A DNA stretch of 64,000 bases from assembly GCF_028368855.1 (NCBI RefSeq), contig NZ_JAQNCY010000002.1, forward strand, positions 336,333-400,332. The letters run 5' to 3'. Both the position numbers and the translations under genes were made by a program. The DNA comes from Leisingera sp. SS27. Lineage in GTDB: Bacteria > Pseudomonadota > Alphaproteobacteria > Rhodobacterales > Rhodobacteraceae. The notes below the pieces were generated by a model. The model ran no database searches, had not been told where the DNA came from, and saw nothing but the letters and a program-made list of their open reading frames with translations. Position 1 is the stretch's first letter; the number at the start of each line of letters is the position of its first letter. Below are positions 31,133 through 55,379 of this stretch, in pieces.

Positions 31133-32212
31133 TCAGGCCTCTGCCAGTTCCGCCTGCGGGGCCGCCGTGCGGCGTTTGGCAACCGCTTCGGCCAGATGCT
31201 CCAGCTCTGTCACGGTGTCCTCCCATCCCAGGCAGCCGTCGGTGACAGACTGGCCGTAGGTCAGCGCCCCCTTGCCCAGGTCCTGGCGGCCTGCCACCAG
31301 ATGGCTTTCCACCATCACGCCGGTGATGCGGCTGTCGCCGCCGGCAATCTGTGCCGCCACATCGCGCAGCACCGCGGGCTGCCGCATCGGGTCCTTGCCG
31401 CTGTTGGCGTGGCTGGCGTCGATCATCACATGGCCGCGGATGCCGTCCTTTTCCGCCAGTTTGCAGGCCGCATCGACCGAGGCCGCGTCATAGTTTGTGC
31501 CGCCGCCGCCGCGCAGGATCAGGTGGCAGTCCGGGTTGCCGCTGGTGGCCGCAATCGCCGCGCGGCCCGACTTGGCCAGTGCCATGAAATGATGCGGATG
31601 GGCGGCCGAGCGCACCGCGTCCACCGCGATCTGCACATTGCCGCGGGTGCCGTTTTTGAAGCCCACCGGGCAGCTGAGGCCGGAGGCCATTTCGCGGTGG
31701 ATCTGGCTTTCCGTGGTGCGGGCGCCGATGGCGGCCCAAGCCACCAGGTCGGAGATGTATTGCGGCACCGCAGTATCCAGGAACTCTGTCCCGACCGGCA
31801 GGCCCAGCGCGTTGATGTCCAGGCACAGGCGGCGCGCCAGCCCCAGGCCCTCGTTGATGCGGAAGGAGTTGTCGAGGCCAGGATCGTTGATCAGCCCCTT
31901 CCAGCCAGAGATGGTGCGGGGCTTCTCGAAGTAGACCCGCATGACGATCTCCAGCTCACCTGCCAGCCTCTGGCGCAGCGGGGCCAGCCGTTCGGCGTAT
32001 TCCATTGCCGCCTTGGGATCATGGATCGAACAGGGGCCGACCACGGCCACCACGCGCCCGTCGCGGCCGTGCAGCACGTCCTGAATGGCGGTGCGGCTGG
32101 CCAGAACGGTATCAGTGGCGGCAGCCGTCGAGGGCATCTGCGCGGCGAGGTCCTCGGGCGAGATCAGTTCCTGCATGCCGGTGATGCGGAGGTTTTCGGT
32201 TTGCGGTGTCAT
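31133..32212 (-). CDS. 3-deoxy-7-phosphoheptulonate synthase (class I DAHP synthase)
   Basis: DAHP synthase joins phosphoenolpyruvate and erythrose 4-phosphate, the entry step to aromatic amino acids. The 359-residue product is of the AroF/AroG/AroH type: VVAVVGPCSIHDPKAAMEYAERLAPL, MRVYFEKPRTISGWKGLINDP, GLPVGTEFLDT, WAAIGARTTESQIHREMASGLSCPVGFKNGT, and RGHVMIDASHANSGKDP. The leader in front encodes a peptide with six aromatic residues in a row followed by a terminator, so the gene is likely controlled by attenuation in response to charged aromatic tRNAs. No other aro or trp gene is adjacent. Confidence 0.94.
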   Translation of the reverse strand: MTPQTENLRITGMQELISPEDLAAQMPSTAAATDTVLASRTAIQDVLHGRDGRVVAVVGPCSIHDPKAAMEYAERLAPLRQRLAGELEIVMRVYFEKPRTISGWKGLINDPGLDNSFRINEGLGLARRLCLDINALGLPVGTEFLDTAVPQYISDLVAWAAIGARTTESQIHREMASGLSCPVGFKNGTRGNVQIAVDAVRSAAHPHHFMALAKSGRAAIAATSGNPDCHLILRGGGGTNYDAASVDAACKLAEKDGIRGHVMIDASHANSGKDPMRQPAVLRDVAAQIAGGDSRITGVMVESHLVAGRQDLGKGALTYGQSVTDGCLGWEDTVTELEHLAEAVAKRRTAAPQAELAEA

Positions 32213-32257
32213 GTTTCAGCTTCCTTGGCGGGAGGCCCGTGGCGCTGCGGCGGATAC

Positions 32258-32287
32258 AAAAAAACCGCCTGCGGGCTGCGGGCGGTT
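32258..32287 (-). terminator. Attenuator terminator before the DAHP synthase gene
   Basis: The minus strand shows AACCGCC, an 11-base loop CGCAGCCCGCA, GGCGGTT and then seven T's. It lies between the leader-peptide stop and the synthase ATG, a position where it can only be a conditional terminator. Confidence 0.85.
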
Positions 32288-32315
32288 GGTGGTATCCTGG
32301 TGCGTTCCGGTCTGT

Positions 32316-32399
32316 CTAACCCGGGAATGCGCTGACCCCTCCGTCCGCCATGTGGCGCGGATAAAAGAAATACCAGAATGCGGCATAGGTACGGGTCAT
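32316..32399 (-). CDS. Aromatic leader peptide (27 aa) of the DAHP synthase attenuator
   Basis: The short frame encodes MTRTYAA, then the run F-W-Y-F-F-Y, then PRHMADGGVSAFPG and TAG. Six aromatic codons in succession at residues 8-13 (Phe, Trp, Tyr, Phe, Phe, Tyr) are the mark of a transcription-attenuation leader sensing all three aromatic aminoacyl-tRNAs. The stop lies 28 bases before a strong terminator. The segment just after the aromatic codons contains GGCGG, complementary to the CCGCC arm of the terminator, so it can serve as anti-terminator when a ribosome stalls. A promoter places transcription start at or one base before the ATG, with no ribosome site, so the mRNA is probably leaderless. 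Confidence 0.85.
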   Translation of the reverse strand: MTRTYAAFWYFFYPRHMADGGVSAFPG

Positions 32400-32406
32400 G
32401 GGCCGG

Positions 32407-32435
32407 ACGCTAGCGGAGATTCGCGGGGCTGTCAC
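32407..32435 (-). promoter_or_regulatory. Promoter of the leader peptide and DAHP synthase
   Basis: GTGACA (minus strand, 32435-32430), a 17-base spacer and TAGCGT (32412-32407). The start site expected seven bases on falls at about base 32400, directly at the leader ATG (32399). Confidence 0.55.
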
Positions 32436-32514
32436 CCCTGAAAATCCCGCACCCCAAAAAGCGCAAGGACCCTCCGCTGCGGGAGAGCCCTTGGCAGTTT
32501 CCTGTGCGCAGACC

Positions 32515-34935
32515 TCAGAAGTCCTGCCACATGTCGCGGGCGGCATTGCCGTCACTGGCGGCGGCTGCAACCGGCGCCGGGCCAGGCTCGGCCGCCCAAT
32601 CCTCATCGGCCCAGTCGTCATCGCCATGTGCCGAGGGCTGCGCCGCTGGCGCGGCCGGCGCTGCCAATGCGGCGCTGCTGCCGTCCACCTGGAACCGCGT
32701 CACCAGGTCTGCAAGCTTCATCGCGTCGCTGTTCAGCATGTGGCCCGCCGCGGTGGCTTCCTCCACCATTGCGGCGTTCTGCTGGGTCACCTGATCCAGC
32801 TGGGTGACGCCGGTGTTGATCTCATGCAGGCCGGTGGACTGTTCCTCAGCGCCTTCGGCGATTTCAGAGACCAGCTGCGAGATATGGCTGACGCGGCCCA
32901 CGATGGACTCCAGCGCCTGGCCTGCCCGGCCCACCAGATCGACGCCCTGGTCCACCTGACGGGAGCTGTCGGAGATCAGTGTCTTGATTTCCATCGCCGC
33001 GTCTGAGGAGCGTTGCGCCAGCGCCCGCACCTCGGAGGCAACCACGGCAAAGCCGCGGCCCGCTTCGCCTGCACGGGCGGCCTCCACCCCGGCATTCAGC
33101 GCCAGAAGGTTGGTCTGGAAGGAAATGTCGTCGATCACGCCGATGATCTGGCTGATCTTCTTCGAGCTGTCCTCGATCCCGCCCATGGCGGCAACCGCCT
33201 CCTGCACCACCTCGCCGCTGGTTTCGGCTTCCTGGCGGGCCTCGCGCACGGTGTTTTCCACATTGCGGGCGCCTTCGGCCGCGGATTTCACACTGGCTGT
33301 CAGCTCATCAATGGCAGCAGCGGTTTCTTCCAGCGTTGCCGCCTGGCTTTCGGTGCGGTGCGACAGATCATCGGAAGCCTGGCTGATCTCCGCGGCACCG
33401 CTGCGGATGCTCGTGGTGGCCTCGATCACCTGCTGGACGGTGACGTTCAGATTGTCGATCGAGCCGTTGAAGTCGGCGCGCAGCTGCTCGTATTCCTCCG
33501 GGAATTGCTCAGCGATGCGGATGGTCAGATCGCCGTGGGCCAGCCGCGACAGCCGTTCGCTCAGCTCGCGCACAACGCCCGCCAGTTCGGCGTCCTTGCT
33601 CTCTGCCTTCTGCGCCTCCGCCTCCTGCATCCGCACCAGTTCGTCGCGGAATTTCTCCAGCGCGCGGGCCATGTCGCCGACTTCATCGCCGCGGTTCTGG
33701 CCATGGATCTCCACCGCGTTGTTGCCCTCGGCCAGGCCGCGCATCGACGTCACGATGCGGCGGATGCCCGACGCAATGCCGGAGGCGATCACAAGCGCCA
33801 GGATGCCGCCGATCAGGATGGCGCCGCCGATAGCCGCGGGGATCATGGTGCGGGTCTGTGCGCCCAGTTCCTCGTTGGCGGCGCGGCGTTCCGCCATAGC
33901 TGCGCTGCCGGCGGCCTGCAGGGTAGCCATAGTCGCGCGGAAGCTGTCAAAATACTCCTTGCCGCGGCCCTCTGCGACCAGGTCGGCCATGTCATCCATG
34001 GTGGCGGCACTGCCGATCACCCGGCGCAGCTGCAGCATCGGCACCACCACTTCATTGCGCCATTCGTCAATGATCCCCGCAACCTTGTTCAGGCGGTTTG
34101 ACTGCATCAGGTTGTCTGCCAGCGCCAGCCGGAGGTCGGCCATAACTTCGTTGAAGCGGCCGTTGCCCTCCATGTAGGGATCCAGAAACTCCCGGTCGCC
34201 TGCCAGAAGGAAGCCGCGCATGCCCGTCTCCATGTCCACCGCGGCGGCCTGCAGGTCCTTGGCGCGGCTGATCACCTTGTGGGTCTGCTCCACCGCCTGA
34301 AGCGAGGTGTTCAGATAGTCCGGATCCGCAATGCCTGCATTGACCAGCGACATGAAGGTGTTGCGGCGGTTGTTCAGCTCGACTTGCTCCTCCTCGATGA
34401 CATTGGTCATCTCGGTGCGGAACTGCTCGAAGTAGACCCGGCCCTTGGATTTCTTCACCTCGGCGGCCATGTCGTTCATGGTCATGGCGTCGCCGATTTC
34501 CTGGCGCAGCGCGATGGCGCCGGCGGCCACGTTTTCCTGCCAGCCGGTCAGGGTCTGCTCCGCCTCGTCCAGGGTGGCCAGCATCTCTGCATCGCCTGCT
34601 GCCAGGTTGCGCAGGCTGGCGAGAGTTTCAGCAACCTGACTTTTGCCCGCCTCGAACGGGACCAGGTACTCCTCCCGGCCCGCCAGAAGGTAGCCGCGCA
34701 GGCCTGCCTCCATTTGCGAAGCCGCCTCTGCCAGGGTCTGCGAACCGGTCAGGATTTCCTGGGTGTGATCCACCGCCTTGGCCGACTGGTCCATCCGGCC
34801 CAGGTTGAAGACGGCAAGCACCCCCACCCCAAGCACCAAAAGCAACGGCAGCACCGCGACGGAAACGATTTTCACCTTGGTACTGAGGTTTGCCAGTGAG
34901 AACCGCCTGGCCGCGGATGTCTTGTTCTTTGCCAT
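32515..34935 (-). CDS. Methyl-accepting chemotaxis protein with duplicated CHASE3-like sensor
   Basis: The 806-residue receptor has a membrane helix (residues 21-42) and two tandem helical sensor repeats. Each repeat has the CHASE3-type pattern E-x-GLRGYLLAGREEYLVP / METGMRGFLLAGDREFLDP. A second membrane helix (AAIGGAILIGGILALVIA), a HAMP domain with a second HAMP-like segment, and the signalling hairpin (EISQLVSEIAEGAEEQSTGLHEINTGVTQLDQVTQQNAAM) follow. The highly conserved tip is RNAGEAGRGFAVVASEVRALAQRS-like. The acidic tail ends in WQDF, resembling a CheR-docking pentapeptide. I start it at the ATG following a GGGAC rather than the upstream TTG. Confidence 0.92.
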   Translation of the reverse strand: MAKNKTSAARRFSLANLSTKVKIVSVAVLPLLLVLGVGVLAVFNLGRMDQSAKAVDHTQEILTGSQTLAEAASQMEAGLRGYLLAGREEYLVPFEAGKSQVAETLASLRNLAAGDAEMLATLDEAEQTLTGWQENVAAGAIALRQEIGDAMTMNDMAAEVKKSKGRVYFEQFRTEMTNVIEEEQVELNNRRNTFMSLVNAGIADPDYLNTSLQAVEQTHKVISRAKDLQAAAVDMETGMRGFLLAGDREFLDPYMEGNGRFNEVMADLRLALADNLMQSNRLNKVAGIIDEWRNEVVVPMLQLRRVIGSAATMDDMADLVAEGRGKEYFDSFRATMATLQAAGSAAMAERRAANEELGAQTRTMIPAAIGGAILIGGILALVIASGIASGIRRIVTSMRGLAEGNNAVEIHGQNRGDEVGDMARALEKFRDELVRMQEAEAQKAESKDAELAGVVRELSERLSRLAHGDLTIRIAEQFPEEYEQLRADFNGSIDNLNVTVQQVIEATTSIRSGAAEISQASDDLSHRTESQAATLEETAAAIDELTASVKSAAEGARNVENTVREARQEAETSGEVVQEAVAAMGGIEDSSKKISQIIGVIDDISFQTNLLALNAGVEAARAGEAGRGFAVVASEVRALAQRSSDAAMEIKTLISDSSRQVDQGVDLVGRAGQALESIVGRVSHISQLVSEIAEGAEEQSTGLHEINTGVTQLDQVTQQNAAMVEEATAAGHMLNSDAMKLADLVTRFQVDGSSAALAAPAAPAAQPSAHGDDDWADEDWAAEPGPAPVAAAASDGNAARDMWQDF

Positions 34936-55067: not shown

Positions 55068-55379
55068 GCTTTCTGTCTTCCGTTTAGCGTGCCAGGCCTT
55101 AGGTTCTTGTCTTTGGCCCAGCTATGTTGAAGGCCCCCGTAGGTGCCTGAGATATAGGGCCCCGAAGGTCCCCGAGTTCGTGCATCCTGACAAACATAAC
55201 GACCCCGGAAACGAATCCGGGGTCTGCAGGATGGATGGCGTTTAGCAGAGTCGCCGGGAGGTGGCAATGACAGACTTCCGGCTTTTCAGAGATTGCCGTC
55301 AGGCTGCCGGGTACCGCCCCGCTGCCCTCCTGTTTGGACCATCCGGCTGCCAAGTGCCACCCCGGCAGTTTCTGCTGCC
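55068..55379. other. Gene-free leader region before rplB
   Basis: These 312 bases separate rplB from the LysR gene, both on minus. I see no rplW and no other gene. An 8-bp stem GACCCCGG / CCGGGGTC (55201-55224) may end the LysR transcript, and a TATATC at about 55152-55157 is a possible -10 for rplB, without a clear -35. Confidence 0.45.

Follow-up and report, generated by a model that had tools for sequence, protein, structure and literature searches.

The type I DAHP synthase gene of our window, the whole 64,000-nucleotide stretch of Leisingera sp. SS27 DNA that was analyzed, is preceded by a short reading frame with a run of aromatic codons and an intrinsic terminator, which together very probably constitute a ribosome-mediated transcription attenuator of the enzyme governed by the supply of charged aromatic tRNAs. 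Beyond this locus, and with a lesser degree of conviction, we favor a broader reading in which the leader belongs to an undescribed but widespread attenuator family, where one peptide would act as an OR gate for a shortage of any aromatic aminoacyl-tRNA and so set the entry enzyme of the pathway. This family would move through Alpha-, Beta- and Gammaproteobacteria as one unit with the type I gene, leaderless in alphaproteobacteria (and probably in Xanthomonadaceae) and with a 5′ untranslated region (UTR) in most betaproteobacteria. The mechanism and the parts are those of classical amino acid attenuation. In the direction of transcription, the features of the locus in window coordinates are:

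32464..32493, minus strand: terminator-like site behind the upstream chemoreceptor gene, from a terminator scan
32430..32435, minus strand: −35-like box GTGACA, read directly; a similar box is common among Rhodobacterales relatives
32407..32412, minus strand: −10-like box TAGCGT, 7 nt before the leader ATG; position kept in alphaproteobacteria
32316..32399, minus strand: leader peptide reading frame, MTRTYAAFWYFFYPRHMADGGVSAFPG, 27 codons plus a TAG stop, read directly
32361..32378, minus strand: aromatic control codons Phe-Trp-Tyr-Phe-Phe-Tyr (codons 8–13), read directly
32354..32361, minus strand: segment 1, candidate partner of segment 2 (protector hairpin), 74.9% of cells paired, weak covariation
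32345..32349, minus strand: segment 2, GGCGG, antiterminator strand within the leader frame; GGCGG or AGCGG in 80/80 leaders
32281..32285, minus strand: segment 3, CCGCC, 5′ arm of the terminator and partner of segment 2, from alignment and pairing
32265..32269, minus strand: segment 4, GGCGG, 3′ arm of the terminator, from alignment and pairing
32258..32264, minus strand: T7 run of the intrinsic terminator; 80/80 leaders have a T-rich run after GGCGG
32287–32258, minus strand: whole terminator, AACCGCC...GGCGGTT plus T7, read directly
32222..32226, minus strand: Shine-Dalgarno-like AAGGA of the DAHP synthase gene, read directly
31133..32212, minus strand: type I (AroFGH) DAHP synthase, 359 aa, ATG at 32212, PF00793 and TIGR00034

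The preliminary description of this DNA had reported a 27-codon aromatic frame and a T7 terminator directly before a DAHP synthase gene, and both were confirmed in place on the minus strand. The identity of the enzyme is supported by matches to TIGR00034 aroFGH (E 1.3e-152) and PF00793 (E 4.4e-93), and its named relatives at 94–95% identity include, among the matches listed, Leisingera aquaemixtae and L. daeponensis. Upstream, a chemoreceptor gene (CHASE3/HAMP/MCPsignal) on the minus strand ends at 32515, and the terminator-like site behind it would make the leader a separate transcription unit. A second CCGCC, within TATCCGCCG, lies at 32249–32253 of the minus strand, 4 nt past the T run; it is common in Rhodobacterales leaders and could pair with the GGCGG of segment 2 or 4 in read-through RNA.

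In the mechanism that we propose, transcription would begin at the leader ATG or only a few bases from it, as the promoter position suggests, so that translation would be leaderless or nearly so. A ribosome waiting on codons 8–11 (Phe, Trp, Tyr, Phe) would leave the downstream GGCGG of segment 2 free to pair with the CCGCC of segment 3 before segment 4 is made, and this 2:3 pairing would block the terminator and allow the DAHP synthase gene to be transcribed. When charged tRNAs are plentiful, the ribosome would instead advance and cover segment 2, which would later be taken up by upstream structure, and the CCGCC/GGCGG terminator would then halt transcription. Two hallmarks of such attenuators, a leader frame with codons for the end products and an intrinsic terminator between leader and gene, are directly visible, while the third, an exclusive antiterminator freed by the stalled ribosome, was found by comparison and folding, clearly in the window and with a mixed picture in relatives. 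The start site, the translation, the stalling and the response to each amino acid are what we infer from these observations.

Within the genome, this control would fall on one particular isozyme. The DAHP synthase downstream of the leader is the genome's only TIGR00034 match, and a type II DAHP synthase is encoded elsewhere (G000:C1:314425-315735). Inspection of ∼600 nt upstream revealed no aromatic leader before the type II gene and no Trp leader before a trpE-like gene of this genome, and the type I gene therefore seems to be the attenuated isozyme.

We compared the 500 nt upstream of DAHP synthase in 90 loci, comprising the window's own, nine genes of its family and the best 80 of 589 confirmed stretches; 86 of these are distinct once four repeats are dropped. 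Scored as a short frame with at least four aromatic residues in seven, an aromatic-run leader was present at 84/90 loci, or 80/86 distinct ones, a high rate that applies to close relatives of the enzyme since the sample includes the best 80 of 589. The leader mostly stands 155–210 nt ahead of the gene. A covariance model added two more leaders, one ∼600 nt upstream of its gene (L089) and one in a Hyphomicrobiales MAG (L082, 1321–1454) whose aromatic run is thinned to MRHHAASSFARYFSCPIRLAAERVCAI and which is perhaps a decaying or a Phe/Tyr-only version. At four loci (L057, L071, L081 and L087), neither the 500-nt search nor the covariance model found a leader. In the window's family, a type I gene was found at E 1e-80 in 9/149 genomes, in all nine cases with the leader, showing that gene and leader go together.

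By their record titles, the loci come from Rhodobacterales, Bradyrhizobium, Inquilinus, Pelagibius, Phenylobacterium, Novosphingobium, Pseudoxanthomonas and Rhodanobacter, and from Burkholderiales, e.g. Massilia, Duganella, Caballeronia and Paraburkholderia. Assigned by hand from titles and likeness, the 80 leaders fall into 24 + 14 alphaproteobacteria (three of the 14, L009, L010 and L086, likewise belong to the family of the window or are akin to it), 8 Xanthomonadaceae and 34 betaproteobacteria. Two titles are probably wrong: over the longest aligned piece, a record titled Mycobacterium sp. KBS0706 (L035) shares ∼91% identity with an Inquilinus limosus MAG (L067), while one titled Nocardioides marinus (L014) shares 84% with Leisingera daeponensis (L015). 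The preliminary description had named conservation of the aromatic run in relatives as a check on its reading, and the run, the GGCGG and the CCGCC/GGCGG terminator are all kept in Alpha-, Beta- and Gammaproteobacteria. The peptide itself varies by clade (FWYFFY, YFWYFSY, FYFWYYF, FYFYFFW) with its aromatic character retained, and Rhodobacterales leader peptides are alike beyond the aromatic run.

At the RNA level, GGCGG or AGCGG starts at nt 47–58 of the frame in all 80 leaders, and around nt 90–145, again in all 80, CCGCC (or CCGCT) and GGCGG form a stem accompanied by a T-rich run. In 71/80 leaders, the GGCGG is read in the frame NNG-GCG-GNN. The codon before GCG, which encodes Met, Lys, Leu, Thr, Gln, Glu or Pro, has G as its last base in 69 of these 71, the two exceptions being misread leaders in which the first AGCGG was taken rather than GGCGG (L035 and L067); the codon after it starts with G and encodes Val, Asp, Ala or Glu. 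Because GGCGG is kept while the encoded amino acids vary, the constraint acts on the RNA and not on the peptide. In a 59-sequence alignment, the terminator (3:4) is fully paired (100% of cells) and one of its pairs shows an AU/GC double change in 17/59 sequences, while the 1:2 hairpin is paired in 74.9% of cells, differs by clade in its outer pairs and register, and covaries weakly. The joint covariation score of 1:2 and 3:4 was 0.123 versus a shuffle maximum of 0.088; since sliding the structure by +3 gave a higher value, 0.154, this score is no proof.

The preliminary description had proposed that the GGCGG of the leader pairs with the CCGCC of the terminator as antiterminator, and this pairing holds up, with few co-changes of segments 2 and 3. 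The core of 2:3 is invariant, and its covariation score, 0.057, compares with 0.037 for shuffles and with 0.051 and 0.053 when the partners are slid by +1 and +3. The core pairs in all 129 leaders scored of 133 (125 GGCGG/CCGCC, three AGCGG/CCGCT and one GU intermediate, GGCGG/CCGCT), a result that is partly by construction since the search pattern required [GA]GCGG and CCGC[CT]; the pattern missed L102, L137, L140 and L160. AGCGG was found only alongside CCGCT, and these three co-changes support the GGCGG–CCGCC antiterminator as a conserved candidate pairing. The first flanking pair of 2:3 was paired in 79/129 leaders versus 59.6 expected and a maximum of 72 in 2000 shuffles that ignore relatedness. 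The second flank (69 versus 61.3 expected, maximum 73) and those further out were not above shuffles.

To model how a waiting ribosome would affect these pairings, we computed folds of the nascent transcript as far as segment 4, masking a ribosome footprint from 15 nt behind to 12 nt ahead of the start of the A-site codon; these equilibrium calculations ignore kinetics. In the window leader, the probability of 2:3 pairing was 0.96, 0.92, 0.92 and 0.92 with Phe8, Trp9, Tyr10 and Phe11 in the A site, then fell to 0.24 at Phe12, 0.07 at Tyr13 and 0 at codons 14–24. Before the run it was 0.96 at Ala6 and Ala7, 0.12–0.49 at codons 2–5 and 0.80 at codon 1. It was 0.06 in free RNA and 0.23 with the ribosome at the stop codon. 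With 10 or 14 nt masked ahead, the shape of the curve was broadly the same (0.62–0.97 at codons 8–11). Phe12 and Tyr13 are thus predicted to lie too near segment 2 to act.

Across the 80 leaders, the stalled state raised 2:3 pairing by >0.05 in 57 and lowered it by >0.05 in none. Among the 23 without a rise, 18 were already high, three were low throughout and two had been measured at the wrong segment (L035 and L067, for which the folding was redone, with the other counts kept unchanged). The 2:3 probability was already ≥0.5 in free nascent RNA in 30/80 leaders, and ≥0.5 with the ribosome at the stop codon in 20/80, so that default termination is not reproduced in those relatives. The averaged curve tops (0.78–0.80) at six to eight codons before segment 2, where aromatic residues are commonest, each of these three positions being aromatic in 96–97% of the 80 leaders. 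The curve is also broad, averaging 0.59–0.78 further upstream, with 0.59 as far back as 16 codons before segment 2, and reaching 0 only at two codons before it. It tells stalls before the run from stalls past it but is not specific to aromatic codons. This masked folding supports a kinetic switch, short of proof.

The generic scans listed neither signal of the leader: a strict sigma-70 consensus scan called no promoter there, with TAGCGT at 3/6 matches, and the attenuator terminator is absent from the list of a simple terminator scan. The promoter and terminator calls rest on conservation in relatives. The free-RNA fold of the whole window leader was no more stable than shuffles (z −1.09), which makes overall stability uninformative. 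A pairing between UGACCC at the leader start and GGGGUCA was seen in the free fold and dropped as a general feature, being lost in relatives such as L003.

The window's GTGACA (32435–32430) and TAGCGT (32412–32407) are 17 nt apart, and 7 nt separate the latter from the leader ATG (32399). When the best −35/−10 pair was sought in the 75 nt upstream of each leader, it ended 6–9 nt before the ATG in 36 of the 38 alphaproteobacterial leaders (the exceptions being L018 and L038) compared with 8.4% in mononucleotide shuffles, a control that covers the 38 alphaproteobacteria only. In most Rhodobacterales relatives, a −35-like box (such as GTGACA, ATGACA or TCGACA) and the −10 are likewise separated by 17 nt. 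Of the 38 alphaproteobacterial leaders, two are preceded by a Shine-Dalgarno match of four, with none longer, and a match of at least four precedes the gene in 33/38. The eight Xanthomonadaceae have a −10 box 7–10 nt from the ATG, with weaker boxes and without a shuffle control. The claim of the preliminary description that transcription starts at the leader ATG is thus backed by a −10 box at leaderless distance in nearly all alphaproteobacteria and does not extend to betaproteobacteria in general, where the box lies 22–39 nt from the ATG in 31/34. That betaproteobacterial arrangement gives some weight to a reading in which translated leader transcripts have a 5′ UTR in Rhodobacterales too, as does the leader frame of the window, which is open upstream as far as 32627 and whose transcription start is predicted from the promoter position. 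Against this stand the 6–9 nt spacing in 36/38 leaders versus 8.4% of shuffles and two leaders with two in-frame ATGs (L021 and L026), the first of which lies at the 7-nt distance, although this start was chosen after sight of the sequence. We regard a 5′ UTR in Rhodobacterales as improbable, and a leaderless start in alphaproteobacteria as likely from these promoter positions.

Which amino acids the attenuator reads is a finer question. The 12 codons before segment 2 hold Phe, Tyr and exactly one Trp in 38/38 alphaproteobacterial and 8/8 Xanthomonadaceae leaders, and the simplest reading of these codons is a three-way aromatic sensor in both groups, with all three aminoacyl-tRNAs presumably sensed. 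Among the 34 betaproteobacterial leaders, the same 12 codons include Phe in 34, Tyr in 31 and Trp in 18, and the 16 leaders that have no Trp there lend some credit to a version in which the attenuator senses one or two amino acids only (e.g. Phe, or Phe and Tyr) and the Trp codon is incidental. Ribosome pausing is weaker at single codons than at runs, which counts in the same direction. So does the aroR leader of Corynebacterium glutamicum, where in a review's account Phe limitation raises expression and Tyr availability does not. A Trp present exactly once in 46/46 alphaproteobacterial and Xanthomonadaceae leaders would be hard to square with an incidental codon, and in the window this Trp, codon 9, sits at a site of strong predicted antitermination (0.92 in masked folding). 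Sensing of only one or two amino acids is therefore a reading we take seriously while holding it somewhat doubtful. A further possibility is that the peptide or the terminated small RNA acts in trans, like rnTrpL/peTrpL of Sinorhizobium, with control of DAHP synthase secondary. Attenuator products that act in trans have been published, as far as the text seen goes, for the leaderless trpL of a related group, and Rhodobacterales peptides are similar past the aromatic run, but the peptide changes across clades (FWYFFY, FYFYFFW, YFWYFSY) while its aromatic character and the RNA-level GGCGG stay, and most leaders keep their place 155–210 nt before the gene; we consider this role quite unlikely. 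Finally, short reading frames are plentiful and the promoter is weak by consensus, as would suit a random small frame with aromatic codons ahead of an ordinary terminator. FWYFFY is, however, the sole run of at least five aromatic codons in the six frames of the 64 kb window, runs of at least six are expected 0.02 times per 64 kb (mean of 60 first-order Markov sequences), and the leader is conserved in relatives; this conservation already refutes a chance origin, to which we give next to no credence.

Among the literature found, the closest case in function to the ribosome-mediated attenuator proposed here is aroR of C. glutamicum (Neshat et al. 2014), described in the accessible accounts as a Phe-Tyr-Phe leader peptide before a DAHP synthase gene, aroF, on which Phe limitation acts and Tyr availability, according to a review, does not (PMC4046766, PMC11802643). 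Like the window leader, aroR is a mixed aromatic leader before a DAHP synthase, and the C. glutamicum genome, like that of the window, has matches for both type I and type II enzymes. It differs in that it belongs to an actinobacterium and has three aromatic codons named, with no Trp, and the likeness is one of function and description. The preliminary description knew of no published account of the family; a published relative in function does exist in aroR, while for proteobacteria no account of the leader was found in open PubMed Central literature; subscription papers may hold one. An earlier prediction is possible in Vitreschak et al. 2004, Panina et al. 2001 or Neshat et al. 2014. The preliminary description had also put enteric pheA and trp attenuators at one amino acid each, and a single kind of aromatic codon does not hold for every known Phe attenuator, as the pheM leaders that we found read FRFFFYF.

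The pheL and pheM leaders (Rfam RF01859) resemble the window leader in their aromatic run and terminator-type leader, and appear as weak matches to our covariance model, but their genes are pheA-like genes and pheS, and the RF01859 model misses the window leader even at E 10. Leader RNAs that start at the leader ATG are described, in the portions of the sources seen, for trpL/rnTrpL of Sinorhizobium meliloti (PMC7298713, PMC10117765) and for several leaders of Streptomyces lividans (PMC8079986); these concern Trp, Leu and others before other genes, unlike the mixed aromatic leader before DAHP synthase in the window. In E. coli, TyrR and TrpR control aroF and aroH, so that the same enzyme is regulated by aromatic amino acids, but there by DNA-binding regulators, and each of the isozymes AroF, AroG and AroH is inhibited by a single amino acid in the account seen (PMC5343134). 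The consulted part of that proteobacterial regulon comparison places DAHP synthase under TyrR and TrpR, and it mentions attenuation in connection with trp and pheA. For Shewanella aroF, a table names an attenuator sensing tyr-tRNA, citing E. coli work (PMC2659441). The main text of a survey of premature terminators contains none of six aromatic terms sought (PMC2965389), and an actinobacterial survey reports, in the text consulted, that Phe or Tyr operons are preceded by no conserved RNA structure (PMC1262725). E. coli divides the control of DAHP synthase among three isozymes and two repressors; in the window a single short RNA seems to sense the end products jointly, and the leader may be an important control of the aromatic entry flux in many proteobacteria. 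It also offers a clean test case for how codon order and position set attenuator sensitivity, and for whether leaderless translation can drive attenuation.

To survey the leader more widely, we built a covariance model, R1, from 59 leaders and searched at a threshold of E 1e-3. R1 matched in 67/398 Pseudomonadota genomes (70 matches) and in 19/385 genomes of the window's class. Of the 70 phylum matches, 48 stand before DAHP synthase, some being training sequences or near them; the other 22 comprise five pheM-like leaders before pheS-like genes, six pheL-like leaders before chorismate mutase/prephenate dehydratase-like genes and 11 without a clear gene. Six of the 11 genes behind Phe leaders were verified by Pfam, and as a positive control, 5/5 tested pheL/pheM loci matched Rfam Phe_leader. 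That R1 recovers Phe attenuators outside its training set speaks for the same kind of switch. The 19 class matches include 13 before DAHP synthase, one cut by a contig end (L095) and five without a gene, and we take the weak matches lacking a clear gene (11/70 in the phylum, 5/19 in the class) as chance. For L103, the leader displayed is an artefact that stems from a short flank. Of the 398 phylum genomes, 225 carry a type I DAHP synthase at E 1e-60, and with strict filters R1 matches at DAHP synthase number at least 48, so many type I genes lack an R1-detectable leader.

At gathering scores, Rfam gave no family at the window leader or in 20 relatives, and at E up to 10, no relevant family was found in 32180–32480, with Phe_leader RF01859 absent. 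Rfam likewise showed no T-box or known riboswitch in the window, in the 20 relatives or in 32180–32480 at E 10. R1 thus provides a ready annotation, with 48/70 matches at the expected gene where no Rfam family matched. The open frames behind two of the pheL-like leaders (L149, 667 aa, and L165, 646 aa) combine chorismate mutase and prephenate dehydratase with a DAHP synthase domain at the C-terminus; judged from its leader, this fusion of three functions is under a putative Phe attenuator. Elsewhere in the window, Rfam identified an L2-Alphaproteobacteria ribosomal protein leader at 55070–55148 on the minus strand (62.1 bits).
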